Source: an uncultured bacterium
Lineage (GTDB): Bacteria; Verrucomicrobiota; Kiritimatiellia; RFP12; UBA1067
DNA length: 39,335 bases
Direction of reading: 5' to 3'
Assembly (NCBI GenBank): GCA_902779075.1
Contig: CACZAK010000048.1
Span: 1-39,335, forward strand
Shown here one piece after another: positions 1 to 29,272 of the stretch (position 1 is the stretch's first letter; the number at the start of each line of letters is the position of its first letter). Made by a program: the position numbers and the translations under genes. The notes beneath the pieces were generated by a model. The model saw only the letters and a list, made by a program, of their open reading frames with translations, did not search any database and was not told where the DNA came from.

Positions 1-1257
1 TACATCAAGGAATACACCGGCGGCCGGAAGCGCGGACAGTTCATTGACGACTACCTCGCGCTTCTCGAAGACTACCGCAGGGCCAATCGAAAGGTGAAGC
101 CCTTCATCTGGACGAAGCTTTCGCCGCTTGCCGAGGGTCAGCGGTTCTACCGTAGCCCGGAGCCTTTCCTTATGCAGGCTGATCTTGAGGCGGTCGCTCA
201 GCTGTGCGAAAGCTTTAATTGGAACAGCGGACACTGTAGCGTTGATATGCAGGAGCCACTACGGGAAAAGATGAACGAAATCTTCGCCCGCGACAAGATA
301 CACCCGAACACCGAAGGCGCACGCGTCATCGCGGAGGCGACTTTCAATGCGCTGATGGATCCTGACAACCGGAGTTGCTGCACGTGCTTTCCAAAGGTCC
401 CGCCTTGTCCGGATTACAAGCGCGCGCACGAATACTGGCTCTGCGCCGGACAGTCCAACATGCAGAAGGGCTGGGGCGAGTTTAACGCGTCGCCCGCCGA
501 AAAGGCGCGCGTCAAGGGCGAGCTGGAGCGGCTTGCGAAGTGCAACATCTGGTTCTGGGATTTCAACGACGGCAAGTGGAACAAGTTGACGACTCAAAAT
601 GCTTTGCGAAAGAGCGCATTCGGCGTTTCCTTCGCGATTCGGCGCGCCGAGGCGACGGGCAAGGCGATTTTCATGCTTTACGTCGCGGCTGGCGGTGCGC
701 CGACGGAATCATTTCTTAGCGAGCAGACGATGTGCGCCATTGGCAAGGACGGCAAGCCGCTTTATCCGCACCTCGCGGCGATTGCGACGAACCGCCACCG
801 TCTTGACCAGAACAAGGACTTCCCGTGCAAGTGGGTTGCGAGGGAATATCCGCGCCGCAGAGGCAACAGGGAAGAGGCATACTGGTGGCCGGTATCGAAG
901 ATGTACGACCATGGGATCAAGCCCATCAAGGATTGTGGAATCAAGGTGCCGGATACGGCGCTTCCTTCGGATTACATTGAAGAGACGCTTCGTGCGGTCG
1001 TCGCCGAGTTGCGGGGTGACCGTAAGATTCCCTTCATCATGATGGGCCTGCCGAAGATGGGGCGGCCGTGGGAGCCGTACCGTGCCGCGCAGAAGAAAGT
1101 GTGCGAAGAGACTGGGGTTATCTATGTCGATACCTTCGGCGCGGGCCTCGGCGATATGCACGATGTGCATCCAAGGGATAAGGTGCCGTTTGCCGAGCTT
1201 GCGATCAAGGCACTGGTGAGACAGCAAGCGTACAACAACAAGGCGGGGGGTGAATGA
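1..1257 (+). CDS. SGNH hydrolase / sialate O-acetylesterase-like protein (5' end outside window)
   Basis: The frame is open from base 1, so the N-terminus lies outside the window. Two esterase parts are visible. The first ends in the SGNH block V catalytic motif (HPNTEGARVIAEA, near base 300). The second begins with the block I motif WLCAGQSNMQ (near 435), the hallmark of the SASA/DUF303 carbohydrate-esterase family that removes O-acetyl groups from sialic acids and other sugars; its closing part has a DxxDVHP-like stretch (near 1165). I infer a tandem or bifunctional glycan deacetylase, probably exported, although the signal region is not visible. The last residues (RQQAYNNKAGGE) are encoded by the first copy of the downstream repeat array, which also supplies the stop codon, so the natural C-terminus was probably near the preceding KALV. 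The nearby Kelch-SSS transporter fits sialic-acid or mucin-glycan use. Confidence 0.75.
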   Translation, partial: YIKEYTGGRKRGQFIDDYLALLEDYRRANRKVKPFIWTKLSPLAEGQRFYRSPEPFLMQADLEAVAQLCESFNWNSGHCSVDMQEPLREKMNEIFARDKIHPNTEGARVIAEATFNALMDPDNRSCCTCFPKVPPCPDYKRAHEYWLCAGQSNMQKGWGEFNASPAEKARVKGELERLAKCNIWFWDFNDGKWNKLTTQNALRKSAFGVSFAIRRAEATGKAIFMLYVAAGGAPTESFLSEQTMCAIGKDGKPLYPHLAAIATNRHRLDQNKDFPCKWVAREYPRRRGNREEAYWWPVSKMYDHGIKPIKDCGIKVPDTALPSDYIEETLRAVVAELRGDRKIPFIMMGLPKMGRPWEPYRAAQKKVCEETGVIYVDTFGAGLGDMHDVHPRDKVPFAELAIKALVRQQAYNNKAGGE

Positions 1258-1462
1258 CAGCAAGCGTACAACAGCAAGGTGGGGGGAGGACAACAAGCGT
1301 ACAACAACAAGGCGTGCAGCCATTGACGCAGCGCGATTGCAAAACTTGTTGTCGTACGCTTGCTGTCACCCCTCCTGACGCCGCCACCCCATCTTGTTGT
1401 AGTACGCTTGCTGTCACCCCTCCTGACGCCGCCACCCCATCTTGTTGTAGTACGCTTGCTGT
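1221..1462. repeat. RAYT 1-associated repeat array 1 (three forward, three inverted copies)
   Basis: A 22-23 bp unit, consensus ACARCAAGCGTACNACARCAAG, occurs forward at 1221-1243, 1257-1279 and 1290-1312, and inverted at 1345-1366, 1393-1414 and 1441-1462. The forward copies are 36 and 33 bp apart, the inverted copies 48 bp apart. Copy 1290-1312, a 32-bp spacer and copy 1345-1366 form a 77-bp head-to-head unit like a REPIN, repeated almost unchanged at 2823-2899. The array ends the upstream esterase gene and precedes the conserved part of the transposase. Confidence 0.9.
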
Positions 1463-1469
1463 CACCCCC

Positions 1470-2954
1470 ATGCACCACAAAGGCCTGCTCGGCTGGCGCT
1501 ACAACTCTCGCTGCAACTACATGATCACCCTTGTCACGGAGCCGCGCACTTCGGTTTTCGGCGAGTTACGCGAATGGGGTGTCGAACGCACCGACGAGGG
1601 CCGCGTTGTCTATGACGTATGGCAAATGATTGAGAAGCGGTTCCCCATGGTACGCGCCACCTACAACGCAATCATGCCTGACCATTTCCACGGCATCATA
1701 TTCATTACCACTGATGGCGAGGTGGGCCTAGACGATGTAGTGGCGTTTTTCGCGGCGGAAGTTGAGCGACGAATCGGACGCCGTGTGTGGTGCGACCTAT
1801 GGCGCGATTCGGTTTGTCTTGCAAAGGGACAGTTGCACAGGCAGATAAACTACGTGCTGAGCAATGCGAAACGCCGGTGGATCAAGGAGAACAACCCCGA
1901 GCTTTTCAGGAAGGTCATGGGCTTTCGCCACTGGCGACTTGATCTCGCGAACGAGACGTTGGCGGGCGTGCCAGAGTTTGACGAACGGTATTTCCGGGGG
2001 GACTCGTTCGGGCGCGAGGATCGCGAATTCTGGGATCTCGAAACTGGGGAAGAGATCGTGAAACCCAGAAAGGCGAATAGAGTCCAGTGGGCATTTGACG
2101 GGGGAAGACAACAAGCGTACAACAGCAAGGTGGGGGGAAGACAGCAAGCGTACGACAACAAGGTGGGGGGGAGACAGCAAGCGTACGACAACAAGGTGTC
2201 TTGCTGTCGTACGCTTGCTGTCACCTCTCCCGACGGCAACCCATCTTGCTGTCGTACGCTTGCTGTCACCCCTCCCCACATCGAATGGACGGCCCTCGGC
2301 AACCCTTTTCTTCTTGACGCACCTCTCCTGATCGCCTTGCAAATCCCTGCGGAGGCGTCGTCTGAATTCGTCGACGACCTTGCCGCCAAGATCGTCACGA
2401 AAGCGGAGCGAGGGGCTGTTGTCGTGGGCACATGGATGTCCCCCGGCGAGCAGACTGTCAAGAAGAGGGTGTTGGAATGTGGCGGAAGCCTTGTACAGCT
2501 GCTCCCCGAGGGGATGGGACGATACTACAAGCCTGGCGGCCGTGATTTCGATCGGTGCGCAGAGGGGCGGATGCTCGTGCTTTCGCCATTCGCGCCACGA
2601 GAGGCTGGCAGGACGCTCGAGAAATGCGACAAGCTGCGTTTCGAGTGGCTGAATTTTGCGGTGCGCGCGATGGGCGATTTGACCATCGGGGGTGCAAGGG
2701 TACAACCAACGGGGCATGGTGAGACAACAAGCGTACAACAGCAAGGTGGTGGTGAGACAACAAGCGTACAACAGCAAGGTGGGGGTGAGACAACAAGCGT
2801 ACAACAGCAAGGCGGGGGTGAGACAACAAGCGTACAACAGCAAGGCGGGGGGCCATTGATGCAGCGCGATTGCAAAACTTGTTGTAGTACGCTTGTTGTC
2901 TCATTCCCAGACGAAAAAGGAAATGAAAGGAATGCAAATGAAAGCAATAAGTAA
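1470..2954 (+). CDS. REP-associated tyrosine transposase (RAYT 1) with C-terminal DprA/Smf-like domain
   Basis: Residues about 1-200 are an IS200-like Y1 transposase domain of the RAYT type: a start like MHHKGLLGWRYNS, the HUH-type metal motif MPDHFHGIIF (near base 1675), and the probable catalytic tyrosine in NYVLSNAKRRW (near 1850). RAYTs bind and nick palindromic REP DNA. Residues about 270-405 resemble a Rossmann-fold DprA/Smf or LOG-like domain (AVVVGTWMSPGE, then GRMLVLSPFAPRE). Between the domains, and again at the C-terminus, the frame runs through the repeat arrays. I chose ATG 1470 because conserved sequence begins there, but the frame is open back to an ATG at 1254 that overlaps the upstream stop. 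The 3' end overlaps the next gene's start. It could instead be two genes split by array 2; I see no convincing internal start. Confidence 0.8.
   Translation: MHHKGLLGWRYNSRCNYMITLVTEPRTSVFGELREWGVERTDEGRVVYDVWQMIEKRFPMVRATYNAIMPDHFHGIIFITTDGEVGLDDVVAFFAAEVERRIGRRVWCDLWRDSVCLAKGQLHRQINYVLSNAKRRWIKENNPELFRKVMGFRHWRLDLANETLAGVPEFDERYFRGDSFGREDREFWDLETGEEIVKPRKANRVQWAFDGGRQQAYNSKVGGRQQAYDNKVGGRQQAYDNKVSCCRTLAVTSPDGNPSCCRTLAVTPPHIEWTALGNPFLLDAPLLIALQIPAEASSEFVDDLAAKIVTKAERGAVVVGTWMSPGEQTVKKRVLECGGSLVQLLPEGMGRYYKPGGRDFDRCAEGRMLVLSPFAPREAGRTLEKCDKLRFEWLNFAVRAMGDLTIGGARVQPTGHGETTSVQQQGGGETTSVQQQGGGETTSVQQQGGGETTSVQQQGGGPLMQRDCKTCCSTLVVSFPDEKGNERNANESNK
2108..2266. repeat. RAYT 1-associated repeat array 2, inside the transposase gene
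   Basis: Three forward copies (2108-2130, 2141-2163, 2174-2196; period 33 bp) are followed at once by two inverted copies (2200-2221, 2245-2266). The array sits in frame between the transposase and DprA-like domains and is read as GRQQAYDNKVG-type peptides, then CCRTLAVT-type peptides. The 33-bp period and the absence of stops keep the frame open. The central spacer of arrays 1 and 3 is missing here. Confidence 0.9.
2724..2899. repeat. RAYT 1-associated repeat array 3 (four forward, one inverted copy)
   Basis: Forward copies lie at 2724-2746, 2757-2779, 2790-2812 and 2823-2845 with an exact 33-bp period. One inverted copy lies at 2878-2899. The spacer 2846-2877 shares a 26-bp core with the spacer of array 1 (1313-1344), differing at one base in CCATTGAYGCAGCGCGATTG and matching in the following CAAAA. 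The array encodes the repetitive C-terminal tail of the transposase and stops about 25 bp before the Kelch-SSS gene's ribosome binding site. Confidence 0.9.
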
Positions 2955-3230
2955 GGTAATCGCTACGATTACAGGAAGCCTCTGCGCTGTAGTGACGGCG
3001 GTGGCGTCGCCCGTGGCGGTGGATTGGAAGGCGGGCGAGACCGCGCCCGCGAAGGTCGCGCGGCCTTTCGCGGGTTTTCTGCCGGATGGGCGGTTTGTGG
3101 TTGCTGGCGGCAGCGATTTCGTTGATGGGAAGAAGGTTTACCGCTCTGGCATCTATGCCCGAGAGTTGGACGGCAAGTGGTCGAAGGTCGGCGAACTGCC
3201 GCATGGATTTTTTGTGCGGGCGGCGTGAGC

Positions 3231-3251
3231 GGCGGTCGCGGGGCGACCGCC
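3231..3251. repeat. Palindrome family A, copy 1
   Basis: A perfect 9-bp stem (GGCGGTCGC / GCGACCGCC) with a GGG loop, followed by CTACCGG. It lies inside the Kelch-coding region and is read in frame in the downstream part as roughly SGGRGATALP. The same stem with a GTG loop recurs at 10979-10999, also inside a gene. Confidence 0.85.
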
Positions 3252-3629
3252 CTACCGGTTGCTGATGCGTTTTTACTGACGCTCGAAGACGGTGCGTCCC
3301 GCGTCTCGCTTCTCACGTCATTGCCGCTCCTGCCGGAGCCGGTTTCCATGGGCGCGGTGGCGGCCGATGGCACGAAGGTGTACGTGGTGGCGCAGAAAAA
3401 GGTGTGGTCTCTTGATGTTGCCAAGGCGCTAGATGCAGATCCGGCGATTCGCAAGTCGGCTGAATGGTCTGCTGTCGCCGAGCTGCCTGGGCCTGCACGT
3501 TCGCAGATGGTTGCGGCAATCCAGAACGGCGACCAGAAGGAAAAGCTGCTTGTGGTTTATGGTGGTTTCGATGCCGCAACGAAGCAACCGCTCCACGATG
3601 GCTACGCGCTGGTGCTTTCAGAGGTGGGG

Positions 3630-3665
3630 AAATCCGGAATATCCGGAAAATCCGGAAAGTCCGGG
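3630..3665 (+). repeat. Four tandem 9-bp repeats inside the Kelch domain
   Basis: Units AAATCCGGA, ATATCCGGA, AAATCCGGA and AAGTCCGGG follow one another and encode KSG/ISG triplets in a Kelch loop. The unit length keeps the frame, so copy number could vary without breaking the protein. Confidence 0.85.
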
Positions 3666-5561
3666 AGCCTCTGGCGCACGCTTGCGCCGTTGCCAGAGGG
3701 CGTGACCACCATCGGTGCGGCGTTTCTGCCGAGCGGGCACCAGCACATTCTTCTCGTGGGGGGCTTTGGCGAGAAGGGCTGGATCGACCGCGCGATCAAC
3801 GGCTCGACCGAAACCGACCCCGTGAAGCTCGGCTGGCAGCGCAAGATCCTCGCCTACAACTGCGTGACCGATGCCTGGTGCGAATACGGTGAGATTGCGC
3901 CTGGGGATAGTCCCCGCTGCGGCGCGGCGGCGGGTATCAAACCTGGCAAGACGCCGGAGCAGTACACGCTCATCCTCGCTGGCGGTGAAGTCGCGCCGAT
4001 GAAACGCACTGACGCCGTTTCTGTCGCAAGCTTCAAGAAAACCGGCAAGTTCGGCGCGACGGCGTGGGCGGTCGTCGGCGTGTATGCGCTCCTGATGGTC
4101 GCGATGGCCGTCTATTTCATCCGCAAGAAGAAGGACGAAAACGACTACTTCCGCGGCGGCAACCGCATTCCGTGGTACGTCGCCGGAATGTCCATATTCG
4201 CGACGATGCTTTCGTCGATCACGTTCATCGCAATACCTACACAGGCGTATCTCCAGGACTGGCGCTATTTTGTAATGGCGTTCTTCATCATCGGCATGGC
4301 GCCTGTGGCGATCTACTACTACCTGCCGTTCTTCTGTCGCCTTGGAATAACATCAGCCTACGAATACCTCGAGAAGCGCTTCAACCTCGGCGTGCGGCTC
4401 TTTGGATCGGCGGCGTTCGTCGTGTTCATGGTGTGCCGCGTCGCGGTCGTGACGCTCCTCCCCGCAATCGCGCTCAACGCCGTCACGGGAATCTCCATCG
4501 ACGCCTGCATCCTCATCTGCGGCATTCTCACGATGATCTACTGTTCGCTTGGTGGTCTGGAGGCCGTCATCTGGAGCGACTTCGTGCAGGGAATCGTCCT
4601 GATGGGCGGGGCGGTCTCGGTGCTCGTGCTGCTCATCCTCAAGACCGGACCCGACGGCGCGCATTTCTCGACGTTCTGGAACGTCGCCACCTCGTGCGAG
4701 AAGACGCGGATGTGGGACTTCCGCCTCCTCTTCACGCAGCCCGTCTTCTGGGTCGTCGCGGTGCAGGGGCTCATCTCCAACCTCTCCAGCTACACGAGCG
4801 ACCAGTGCGTGATCCAGCGCTACATCGCGACGCCCGACGAGAACGCGACGAAGCGCTCCCTGTGGTTCAACGGTTGCATGAGCGTTTTTGCGCAGATCGT
4901 GTTCTACGGAATTGGTACGGCGCTCTTCGCGTTCTACCACACGAACCCGACGGCGATGGACGTCACGATGCCCAAGGGCGACTCGGTTCTCCCGATCTTC
5001 ATGGCCACGGAGATGCCGCCGTGGCTCGCGGGCCTCGTGATCGCGGCCGTGTTCGCGGCGACGATCTCCACGCTTTCGGCGAACCTCAGCTCCGCCTCGA
5101 CGGCAGTCGTCACCGACTTCATCAAGCGCTTCAAGCCCAACATCCCCGGCAAGGCTCAGATCCGCTGCGGACAGGTCTGCACCTACGTGGTGGGCGTGGT
5201 GGGCATCTTCGCGGCGCTCACGCTCGCGCGCATGGAGTCGAGCGCGCTCTTCGACAACTTCAACAAGTACATCGCGATGCTCACGGCGGGTCTGACGGGG
5301 CTCTTCTTCATGGGCGTGTTCATCCCGCGCATCAAGGGTGTCGCGGCGGTGCTCGGGCTTGCGGCGAACTACTTCGTGTGCTTCAGCTGCGAGATTCTGC
5401 ACTGCGACGTGTTCGGGCTCAAGTTCCACCCGTTCCTCCTCGGCGGCATCGGACTCGTCGTGTGCGTGGCAGTCGCATACATCGCGTCGTTCCTCCTTCG
5501 CGAAAAGGGGCGCGACCTTGCAGGTCTCACATTGAAGACGCTTAAGAAGCCCAGTGGCTCT

Positions 5562-5581
5562 GTGCGCTGACGCACGGTTTT
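5562..5581 (+). terminator. Short rho-independent-like terminator of the Kelch-SSS gene
   Basis: Stem GTGCG / CGCAC with loop CTGA, followed by GGTTTT. The loop contains the TGA stop codon of the transporter gene, and the T run abuts the -10 box of the next promoter. The stem is short, so termination may be partial. Confidence 0.5.
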
Positions 5582-27986: not shown

Positions 27987-28067
27987 GGGAACGGACGGGG
28001 GTTGCGCCCCCGAACCCCTGCGGGGTTGGGCTATTCTTGCCTGCGCCCCCGAACCCTTGCGGGGTTA
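27987..28067. repeat. RAYT 2-associated palindromes at the gene's 3' end
   Basis: GGGAACGGACGGGGGTTGCG then CCCCCGAACCCCTGCGGGGTT, followed by a second CCCCCGAACCCTTGCGGGGTT. Each unit makes two small hairpins (GGGGG/CCCCC and ACCCC/GGGGT). The stop codon of RAYT 2 (28065-28067) lies within the last copy. Confidence 0.8.
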
Positions 28068-29093
28068 TGCCATTTCTGCTGCCTTGGAGCAGAGGGCGGC
28101 GGCGAGGCTATTCATGATGTTGCAGCGAGCGCGCAGATTCTCGCGGGAATCGGGCGTGCCTTGCGGAAAGCCGCTTACGGGCACGAGGCCGCGCACGGCG
28201 CGCTCCATGATGCTATCGATTTCGGCGGCGTGTTCTTCGGCTGTCTTGCGCATGGTGAGGCGCACATGGTGGAGGAAGGGCGAGGCAAGGAGCGTGAGAT
28301 TGCCCATGGCATCCCATCGCCGGGCGGGATCAAGCACCGGATGGCGGATGTTGGCGAATCGGATGAAGCGATCGGGATGGCGCGCCTTCCACAGCGCCCG
28401 CGCGGGATTGAGCCGGATGTAGCGGCGAATGGCCTTGAGCTGCCGCGCATCGAAGGAAAGCTCGATGAAGCAGCGGCGGTTCCAGCGCGGGGCCTGCGGG
28501 GCGGCTGGCGCCGGGGAATGGACGGGGGCTTGCAGCCCCCGAACCCCTGCAGGGTGAGATTGCTTTGCCTCTGCGCCCCCGAGCCCCTGCTGGATTGGGC
28601 GATTCTTGCCTGCGCCCCCGAACCCCTGCGGGGTGGGGAGGGGCAGTGGCAATACGGCGTGATTGCCCACGATGAGCTGGCCGAAATTCTGGCGGGCGAG
28701 GGTGATTGCTTTGGAGAGGGCGGCATCTGCTTCCAGGGGTTCGGGGGCGGAGCCCCCGTCCGTTCCCCGCTCCAGCGCCCAAAGGATTTCTGCCGCATCC
28801 ATCAGCCGGTGCGTGGCCCACAGCGGGCTGAAGGTGGGATCCTGCGAATAATCCACAATCAGCAGAAAATGCACATGATCGGGCATGATCACGAAATCGG
28901 AAATGGTGGCGCATGGGAAGCAGCGATGCATTGCCACCAGCAGCGCTTTCACAATTTCGCCGCAGGGCAGCAGCGCCGGGCGCGAGCGCTCATCGACGAG
29001 GCGCGAAAGGCCCCCCTGCGGGGCGCCTTGCCTCTCAATGGCTATTGTGATGAAAAAGAACTGCCGGCCGGCATGATGGAATTGCATTTTCAT
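28065..29093 (-). CDS. REP-associated tyrosine transposase (RAYT 2) with embedded palindromes
   Basis: A 342-residue Y1 transposase of the RAYT group: N-terminal MKMQFHHAGRQFFFITIAIE, the metal motif MPDHVHFLLIV (near residue 75) and catalytic tyrosine motif RRYIRLNPARALWK (near residue 225). It is only distantly related to RAYT 1. Two in-frame inserts made of its own palindromes interrupt the conserved sequence: GGSAPEP near residue 112, and about 45 residues (TPQGFGGAGKN through VRGLQAP) between NHAVLPLP and APRWNRRCF. The gene is last in a relB-yoeB-small ORF operon. The frame also opens with GTG 29105, overlapping the upstream stop; ATG 29093 has AGGGTGAG upstream and is preferred. It ends inside a palindrome copy. 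Confidence 0.8.
   Translation of the reverse strand: MKMQFHHAGRQFFFITIAIERQGAPQGGLSRLVDERSRPALLPCGEIVKALLVAMHRCFPCATISDFVIMPDHVHFLLIVDYSQDPTFSPLWATHRLMDAAEILWALERGTDGGSAPEPLEADAALSKAITLARQNFGQLIVGNHAVLPLPLPTPQGFGGAGKNRPIQQGLGGAEAKQSHPAGVRGLQAPVHSPAPAAPQAPRWNRRCFIELSFDARQLKAIRRYIRLNPARALWKARHPDRFIRFANIRHPVLDPARRWDAMGNLTLLASPFLHHVRLTMRKTAEEHAAEIDSIMERAVRGLVPVSGFPQGTPDSRENLRARCNIMNSLAAALCSKAAEMA
28513..28640. repeat. RAYT 2-associated palindromes inside the gene
   Basis: Three units in a row, each containing GCCCCCGARCCCCTGC followed by a G-rich arm. The first is preceded by GGAATGGACGGGGGCTTGCA, matching the leading part of 27987-28067. They are translated in frame in RAYT 2 as a proline/glycine-rich insert. 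Confidence 0.85.
28733..28768. repeat. RAYT 2-associated palindrome, inverted copy inside the gene
   Basis: CCAGGGGTTCGGGGGCGGAG then CCCCCGTCCGTTCCCC is the reverse complement of the unit at 27987-28067. It is in frame in RAYT 2 and encodes about ten residues near GGSAPEP. Confidence 0.85.
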
Positions 29094-29101
29094 GTGCAGG
29101 C

Positions 29102-29272
29102 TCACCCTTGCGCGGCCTTCATCGCCAGCAGCTTCTTGTGGAGGCGATCGAAAACCTCATCATTGGGAATGCCCTTGCCTTCGGCGAATTCGCGGCGGGA
29201 AATTTCAATGTCCCTTGAAAGCGCACTACACTCGTTCTGCGTGTTTACGATGGGGCAGGGGGGGTCAGTCAT
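29102..29272 (-). CDS. Small antitoxin-like protein
   Basis: A 56-residue protein, start ATG 29272 overlapping the yoeB stop. Its C-terminal half (RREFAEGKGIPNDEVFDRLH) resembles the end of addiction-module antitoxins that cap a RelE/ParE-type toxin. It may be a truncated second antitoxin. The stop overlaps the upstream GTG of RAYT 2, making a tight four-gene operon. Confidence in function is low. Confidence 0.45.
   Translation of the reverse strand: MTDPPCPIVNTQNECSALSRDIEISRREFAEGKGIPNDEVFDRLHKKLLAMKAAQG

Follow-up and report, generated by a model that had tools for sequence, protein, structure and literature searches.

A predicted RAYT transposase with a DprA-like domain and repeats inside its own gene in an uncultured member of the Kiritimatiellia

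RESULTS

A transposase frame that runs through three repeat arrays

The DNA analyzed here (the window) is a 39,335-nucleotide stretch (positions 1 to 39,335) of contig CACZAK010000048.1 of GenBank assembly GCA_902779075.1, from an uncultured bacterium of the Kiritimatiellia (Verrucomicrobiota). Near its left end, a frame of 566 amino acids (1254 to 2954, plus strand) runs without an internal stop through three arrays of an ∼20-bp repeat. Sequence alignment and a structure model indicate that it encodes a transposase of the RAYT (repetitive extragenic palindrome [REP]-associated tyrosine transposase)/TnpA_REP type, fused to a DprA-like domain. A reading made earlier from the letters of this DNA (the sequence-only reading) had described the frame as open through all three arrays, with array 2 between the transposase and DprA-like parts and array 3 as the C-terminal tail; the coordinates agree, and the two peptides that it quoted, TTSVQQQ and CCRTLAVT, are correct. 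The features are as follows (F, forward copy; R, inverted copy).

1217..2980, plus strand: segment absent at the same site in two related genomes (G001 and G012), which have ∼115 unrelated bases instead
1225..1458: array 1, leader (F 1225-1243, 1261-1279, 1294-1312; R 1344-1362, 1392-1410, 1440-1458)
1254..1277, plus strand: probable start codon at the second F copy, ATGACAGCAAGCGTACAACAGCAA (MTASVQQQ), overlapping the upstream stop
1254..2954, plus strand: predicted RAYT + DprA-like fusion gene (open reading frame, alignment, structure model)
1470..2099, plus strand: HUH/Y1 transposase domain (His72 1683-1685, His74 1689-1691, Tyr128 1851-1853, Asn132 1863-1865); position 1470 is an alternative start of the fusion protein
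2112..2262: array 2, interdomain linker (F 2112-2130, 2145-2163, 2178-2196; R 2199-2217, 2244-2262)
2280..2708, plus strand: DprA-like domain (structure model, fold and sequence matches)
2728..2895: array 3, C-terminal tail (F 2728-2746, 2761-2779, 2794-2812, 2827-2845; R 2877-2895)

The repeat (consensus ARCAAGCGTACNACARCAAG) occurs in 16 copies between 1225 and 2895, where 0 were expected from 100 shuffles. The copy at 1225 lies in the frame of the upstream gene and the other 15 in the RAYT frame. Every array has its forward copies before its inverted ones (3F+3R, 3F+2R, and 4F+1R), an order that, like the ending of the upstream gene within array 1, goes beyond the sequence-only reading. The periods of 33 and 48 bp proposed there hold for the in-frame forward copies and for the inverted copies of array 1, but the inverted copies of array 2 are 45 bp apart. 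Linker forward copies translate as QQAY(N/D)(N/S)K, and array 2, taken as single-stranded DNA, has a strong predicted fold (z score, -12.6). An independent assembly (locus L033 in G014), 99% identical to the window in the transposase domain, has the same frame, the same array 2 (3F+2R), and the same array 3 (4F+1R), so that these two arrays are no mis-assembly of the window; its contig begins within array 1, which this check does not reach.

A RAYT-type domain joined to a DprA-like domain

The HUH histidines (His72 and His74), Tyr128, and Asn132 are invariant in 42 of 42 aligned sequences, and the window signature reads DHFH, LWR, and YVLSNA in the alignment. Tyr and Asn were assigned after the motif description of Quentin et al. 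(2018; PMC6006769). A loss of the catalytic tyrosine, as read from a GYxD motif, was ruled out, the nucleophile being Tyr128 by the alignment and the motif table of that paper. The best fold match in the PDB is Escherichia coli TnpA_REP with a REP hairpin (4er8; E, 3.3e-7; TM-score, 0.64 by target length), with IS200/IS605 transposases ranking close behind. All 42 aligned sequences match the NCBIfam model REP_Tyr_transpos at an E of ≤0.1 (best E, 1.5e-15).

DprA has a role in DNA uptake and RecA loading. The C-terminal domain of the window protein is modeled with a confidence (pLDDT) of 88, and its best fold matches are DprA (4ljr; E, 1.7e-5; TM-score, 0.69 by query), with ShosA (8zva) scoring 0.76; its sequence similarity to DprA is marginal (E, 0.0052). 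The AlphaFold model of the fusion protein has two confident domains, with a pLDDT of <50 over most of the linker (residues 179-253 and 257-262, numbered from position 1470) and the tail (410-494), so that arrays 2 and 3 appear as low-confidence, disordered-like segments. The second domain was matched in 60 of the 71 loci examined (3 of them orthologues of the window gene), many with a short linker, and the record names of such RAYT + DprA-like loci include Kiritimatiellae, Lentisphaeria, and Bacteroidales. Among the 11 loci without a match are four short RAYTs whose length is ordinary, as well as truncated frames. The fusion thus predates the array, which was added to an old linker rather than joining two genes.

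Orthologues keep the frame and the repeat

We compared 11 orthologous genes, including that of the window, with 68 to 99% identity in the transposase domain; loci L004 and L033 represent a single contig, and L005 is apparently the same locus as L035, taken from a different source. The comparison of orthologues that the sequence-only reading had proposed favors a conserved frame: all 11 keep both domains in one open frame, with repeat sequence in the linker in a fixed phase. An inverted copy lies 29 nt before the MxHKG motif in 10 of 11, and L037 has a forward copy there. Across orthologues, linker forward copies read QQA.. or are relics, inverted copies read CC.TL.., and tail forward copies read ..SVQQQ or similar. 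Copy number differs by whole units (for example, seven 27-bp units in L041). Tail copies are missing or out of frame in L035, L037, L038, and L006, and the tail is therefore dispensable.

Neighboring same-way copies with ≤1 mismatch are spaced by a multiple of three in all 18 cases within the RAYT frame and in none of the 10 before the start (L033 was excluded as a near-duplicate, and L036 was not in the set). Codons for the same residue are identical in 54% and 51% of cases in the two domains, at amino acid identities of 80% and 75%; synonymous codons thus vary widely in both domains, which argues that both are under protein-level selection. By comparison, linker repeat codons are identical in 135 of 150 same-residue pairs (90%), versus 110 (73%) expected from core codon use, among eight orthologues (L033 left out; L035 and L036 have no matching first copy). 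The second Gln is CAA in every compared linker copy, and core Gln codons are CAG and CAA at 60 to 6. This excess of codon identity shows that the repeat is kept, or homogenized, as DNA.

Probable start codon, stop/start overlap, and predicted hairpin in the leader

The gene before the RAYT ends in array 1.

1..1257, plus strand: upstream gene, 5' end beyond the window; putatively SGNH/acetylesterase-like, by reading alone

Its last codons, RQQAYNNKAGGE, are repeat derived, and its TGA overlaps the RAYT start as ATGA; the upstream gene of G001 is the same gene without the repeat end. The RAYT start codon probably lies within the repeat (ATGACAGCAAGC), at the foot of the conserved hairpin described below. 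Upstream sequence of >150 nt is available for 10 orthologues, and in 8 of these an in-frame ATG stands right before the last forward copy, in 7 of them as ATGA. The exceptions are L035, which has other in-frame ATGs, and L041, which has no repeat-borne start. An AAGGAG precedes the repeat-borne ATG in L038 and L040. The ATGA of the first repeat closes a long upstream frame (222 to 676 codons) in L034, L036, L038, L039, and L040. Additional units in L038 and L039 make up a series of mini-frames (MTASVQQQGVE, MTASVQQQGSGSKE) that each close on the next ATGA and lead up to the RAYT; this chain has one link broken by a stop in L040 and gaps in L034 and L036.

In seven orthologues, the forward copy at the start can pair with the inverted copy that precedes MxHKG (window position 1440) at 161 of 168 positions. 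One mismatch column is kept in six of the seven, and there is one double change from G-C to A-U. The predicted leader folds of these seven have z scores from -4.3 to -9.2. The fold predicted for the window itself involves other inverted copies of array 1. The sequence-only reading had taken the repeats to be translated, or kept open under selection. The frame constraint and the linker copies read as protein bear this out, but array 1, with its probable start codon and hairpin, is not simply an N-terminal tail.

Genomic site of the gene and dispersal of the repeat

Genomes G001 and G012 share the neighboring sequence on both sides (window 1-1216 and from 2981 on) and have no RAYT in between. 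G014 has the 1217..2980 segment from its contig end onward. A search for the repeat gave 133 matches in G014, 106 in G012, and 83 in G001, the reversed pattern giving 0 in these three. Other relatives in that search had 0 to 15, apart from G050, a genome of another family with 42, where the matches listed are a CGGAC variant. Ten genomes other than that of the window carry an orthologue: eight have 5 to 15 copies, G067 (the genome of L041) has 33, and G014 has 133. The density at the RAYT gene, 16 copies in 1.7 kb, is far above that elsewhere. Forward and inverted copies thus lie around and in the gene and are dispersed in the genome of the 99% identical orthologue, as is expected of a RAYT gene, with inverted repeats at its flanks and in other places of the genome.

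To describe the surroundings of the copies, loci were taken around the matches listed for G014; once duplicate contexts had been removed and the RAYT locus set aside, 46 loci with 101 copies remained. Genes were called by a codon model trained on the same loci, and P values are indicative only, as related copies and species are not independent. Inside called genes lie 83 copies, 67 sense and 16 antisense; among the sense copies, 42 have the TASVQQQ phase. Within-gene repeat spacings are multiples of three in 15 of 15 cases. Eight antisense copies fall within the first 25 codons, several of them in hydrophobic N termini (e.g., MKIAKTCCCTLAV). In relatives, the same slots may carry another repeat, such as a GTAG-type palindrome, again in frame. 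At compared sites, copies are shared, missing, or replaced by other sequence; where both flanks were found, genic length differences are multiples of three and some intergenic ones are not.

Several other repeat-bearing places were seen. In G050, none of the matches listed is on the contigs of its four RAYT hits. Loci L112, L114, and L115 (G014, G017, and G001; phage-like by reading alone) have many single copies in one orientation, several at gene junctions, where the TGA of the repeat can end the upstream gene. Two stretches of L147, 1366-1581 (∼215 bp) and 1596-1700 (∼100 bp), have numerous matches in G001 and G012 (on both strands for the second) and are possible families like miniature inverted-repeat transposable elements.

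In-gene repeats of other RAYTs and the 3' neighbor

A 15-mer recurs at ≥2 separate places within the RAYT open frame in 29 of the 71 loci (3 of them orthologues), in some before the likely start. Another repeat criterion gives 23 of 71; L079 and L080 pass since their palindrome is counted on both strands. Genome-wide tests covered four patterns (L079/L080, L020, L002, and a second RAYT of the window) and ruled out that the in-gene repeat of every RAYT is dispersed, as all four were found only or almost only locally or with few matches. The L079/L080 repeat occurs at its own gene only, twice per genome. In G042, the L020 pattern occurs three times, always on the RAYT contig, and G034 has two one-mismatch places. 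The L002 pattern was found four times on the RAYT contig of G001 and three times on a single contig of G012.

28065-29105, minus strand: RAYT 2 of the window (repeats 28571-28590, 28610-28629, 28002-28021, and 28041-28060)

The RAYT 2 repeat has a 39-bp spacing and lies in frame between the HUH and Tyr motifs, with two more copies just downstream; it was matched twice in G001, twice in G014, and not at all in G012 or G008.

On the 3' side of the fusion gene, a kelch/transporter-like gene is apparently in two frames (2893-3228 and 3177-5570), and G001 has extra sequence at 3177-3240. The same gene contains a GTAG-type palindrome, GGCGGTCGCGGGGCGACCGCCCTACC, at 3231-3256 and a repeat with a 9-bp period (GGAAAATCC-like) at 3627-3664, which has many matches in G012 and G014.

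DISCUSSION

A probable REPtron-like unit with its repeat built into the gene

We favor, with a confidence of 0.74, the reading that the window contains a REPtron-like unit, in which a RAYT bears a DprA-like domain at its C terminus and has its own repeat built into its gene. It builds on the open frame, the fusion, the conserved phase, the conservation of the repeat as DNA, the hairpin pairing, and the dispersal into genes of relatives, all of which were read from sequence. The repeat would be an imperfect hairpin arm of ∼24 bp, laid out as forward and then inverted copies inside the RAYT's own gene. Leader copies would contribute a start codon that overlaps the stop of the upstream frame, and they would form a hairpin across the site of initiation; linker and tail copies would be translated as flexible peptide; and copies in coding sequence would persist only if the frame is kept. 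The RAYT may bind and cleave the repeats as single-stranded hairpins, and it or its relatives may spread them. If translation begins in the repeat, the leader hairpin could couple or limit it, which makes self-regulation of the RAYT plausible.

We also consider a more elaborate scheme, which we think rather unlikely. The repeat would serve two uses, one in DNA and one in translation, its tandem units combining an AAGGAG-like stretch, ATGA, and a stop-free body. Mini-frames of 11 to 14 codons would pass ribosomes from the upstream gene to the RAYT via stop/start overlaps, and the RAYT would recognize the same hairpin and so limit its own synthesis. A repeat that keeps the reading frame open could also spread through coding sequence as a translated linker.

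Several observations weigh against a REPtron-like unit. The window protein matches REP_Tyr_transpos only at an E of 4.6e-4 (20.1 bits; cutoff, 80 bits), and NCBIfam ranks curli CsgB first for it, by a match to the repeat tail that we take as a composition effect. Pfam searches gave no match, either for the window protein or with single sequences. The repeat has no GT[AG]G foot of canonical REPs, most orthologues having GGAATGAC / GTCACTCC at that place, and one copy by itself forms an arm and no palindrome, so that pairing requires a forward and an inverted copy; many of the dispersed copies are such single arms. Among weaker copies (two to three mismatches), only three of six spacings in frame and one of two upstream are multiples of three, the in-frame exceptions being 14-bp half-copies. 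The hairpin signal is missing in L035 (z, -1.4) and L037 (z, +0.4). The genic share of the G014 copies (82%) is slightly below the coding density of 90% (0.897; P = 0.02), and no clean empty site with a target duplication was found in a region common to G014, G017, and G001 or at two multicopy G014 loci. Finally, two of the three repeat-richest genomes, G001 and G012 (both incomplete assemblies), have no close RAYT orthologue, and 8 of the 10 other genomes with an orthologue hold only 5 to 15 copies.

Alternative explanations

Ordinary slippage of tandem repeats within flexible linkers, the copies not serving as transposase sites, would account for whole-unit changes such as the 27-bp units of L041, for the position of linker and tail copies in low-confidence segments of the model, and for the in-gene repeats of three distant RAYTs, which are found almost only at the gene. 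It does not predict inverted copies, the copy conserved 29 nt before MxHKG, the conserved codon choice, or one repeat shared by leader, linker, and tail and dispersed to other genes, and we consider it very unlikely. The repeats might instead be a selfish family that is independent of the RAYT and owes its movement to a different enzyme or to recombination between slots, with the RAYT gene as a heavily hit host. The copy-rich genomes without a detectable close orthologue fit this view, as do the other repeat families, GTAG palindromes included, in the same slots of relatives; with these two genomes in view, the window RAYT is a candidate for mobilizing the repeat. However, the orthologues of all 10 other genomes carry the repeat at the gene, those of copy-poor genomes included, and the density at the gene far exceeds that elsewhere, which makes an independent family unlikely.

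Whether array 1 is translated depends on the start codon. Array 1 could be an untranslated leader and the protein could begin at the ATG at 1470, with translation of arrays 2 and 3 only. An ATG stands there in 10 of 11 orthologues, the conserved region of distant RAYTs begins nearby, and the 157 nt upstream of the domain in L041, up to its contig end, have neither a forward copy nor an in-frame ATG, GTG, or TTG, which also counts against a repeat-borne start. L006, which has CTC at that position, speaks against a start at 1470; its in-frame candidates are a GTG at -42, an ATG at -93 (in the repeat), and a GTG at -102, and the first of these, 42 nt before the domain, counts against a repeat-borne start as well. 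Given the ATG before the last forward copy in most orthologues and the AAGGAG in front of it in two, a start at 1470 is possible but doubtful.

Comparison with known systems

In-frame REPs in tnpA_REP and other genes are already known from two papers (PMC6006769; Di Nocera et al., 2013, PMC3733652). In the first, REPs occur within tnpA_REP genes of subclass 2.4 without breaking the frame, usually between HuH and Y, and in-gene insertions are thought to occupy peripheral or flexible regions. The fusion gene resembles that subclass in its HUH/Y transposase of the RAYT kind, in frame-keeping in-gene repeats, and in repeats that also flank the gene. It differs in signature (NH[IFV]H / WQ / YIxNNP in subclass 2.4; DHFH / Y(I,V)LSN-type here), in the place of the repeats (between HuH and Y with a GT[AG]G foot there; leader, linker, and tail without the foot here), and in its DprA-like domain. 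RAYT 2 of the window fits the repeat position published for subclass 2.4. E. coli TnpA_REP shares the HUH domain fold, but its solved chain of 165 residues (4er8) has no second domain, and GTAG-type REPs lie beside its gene (PMC6006769). DprA (4ljr and 3uqz) shares the fold of the second domain, which here is fused to a transposase and only marginally similar in sequence.

REPs inside unrelated genes are described in the second paper. Like intragenic REPs and Rickettsia palindromic elements, the repeat lies in frame within unrelated proteins, single or grouped, with some copies at linkers or ends. Those elements are mostly intergenic, whereas 83 of 101 copies are intragenic here, at 90% coding density and with a bias in orientation and frame. 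Each Rickettsia element is itself palindromic, whereas a copy of the window repeat is one arm. The open literature searched gave no prior report of a RAYT together with DprA, of a REPtron with a start codon, or of in-frame REPs in Kiritimatiellia. New here are the DprA-like fusion, the repeats in leader, linker, and tail, the probable repeat-borne start, and a repeat family that is largely intragenic in one genome.

RAYT genes are maintained stably, and how they benefit their host is unexplained (PMC6006769). In a clade whose own coding sequence and leader preserve the repeats, self-recognition and autoregulation can be tested directly, and the DprA-like fusion is a lead on how the enzyme handles single-stranded DNA. 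The largely intragenic repeat shows how transposase-linked repeats could generate protein linkers.

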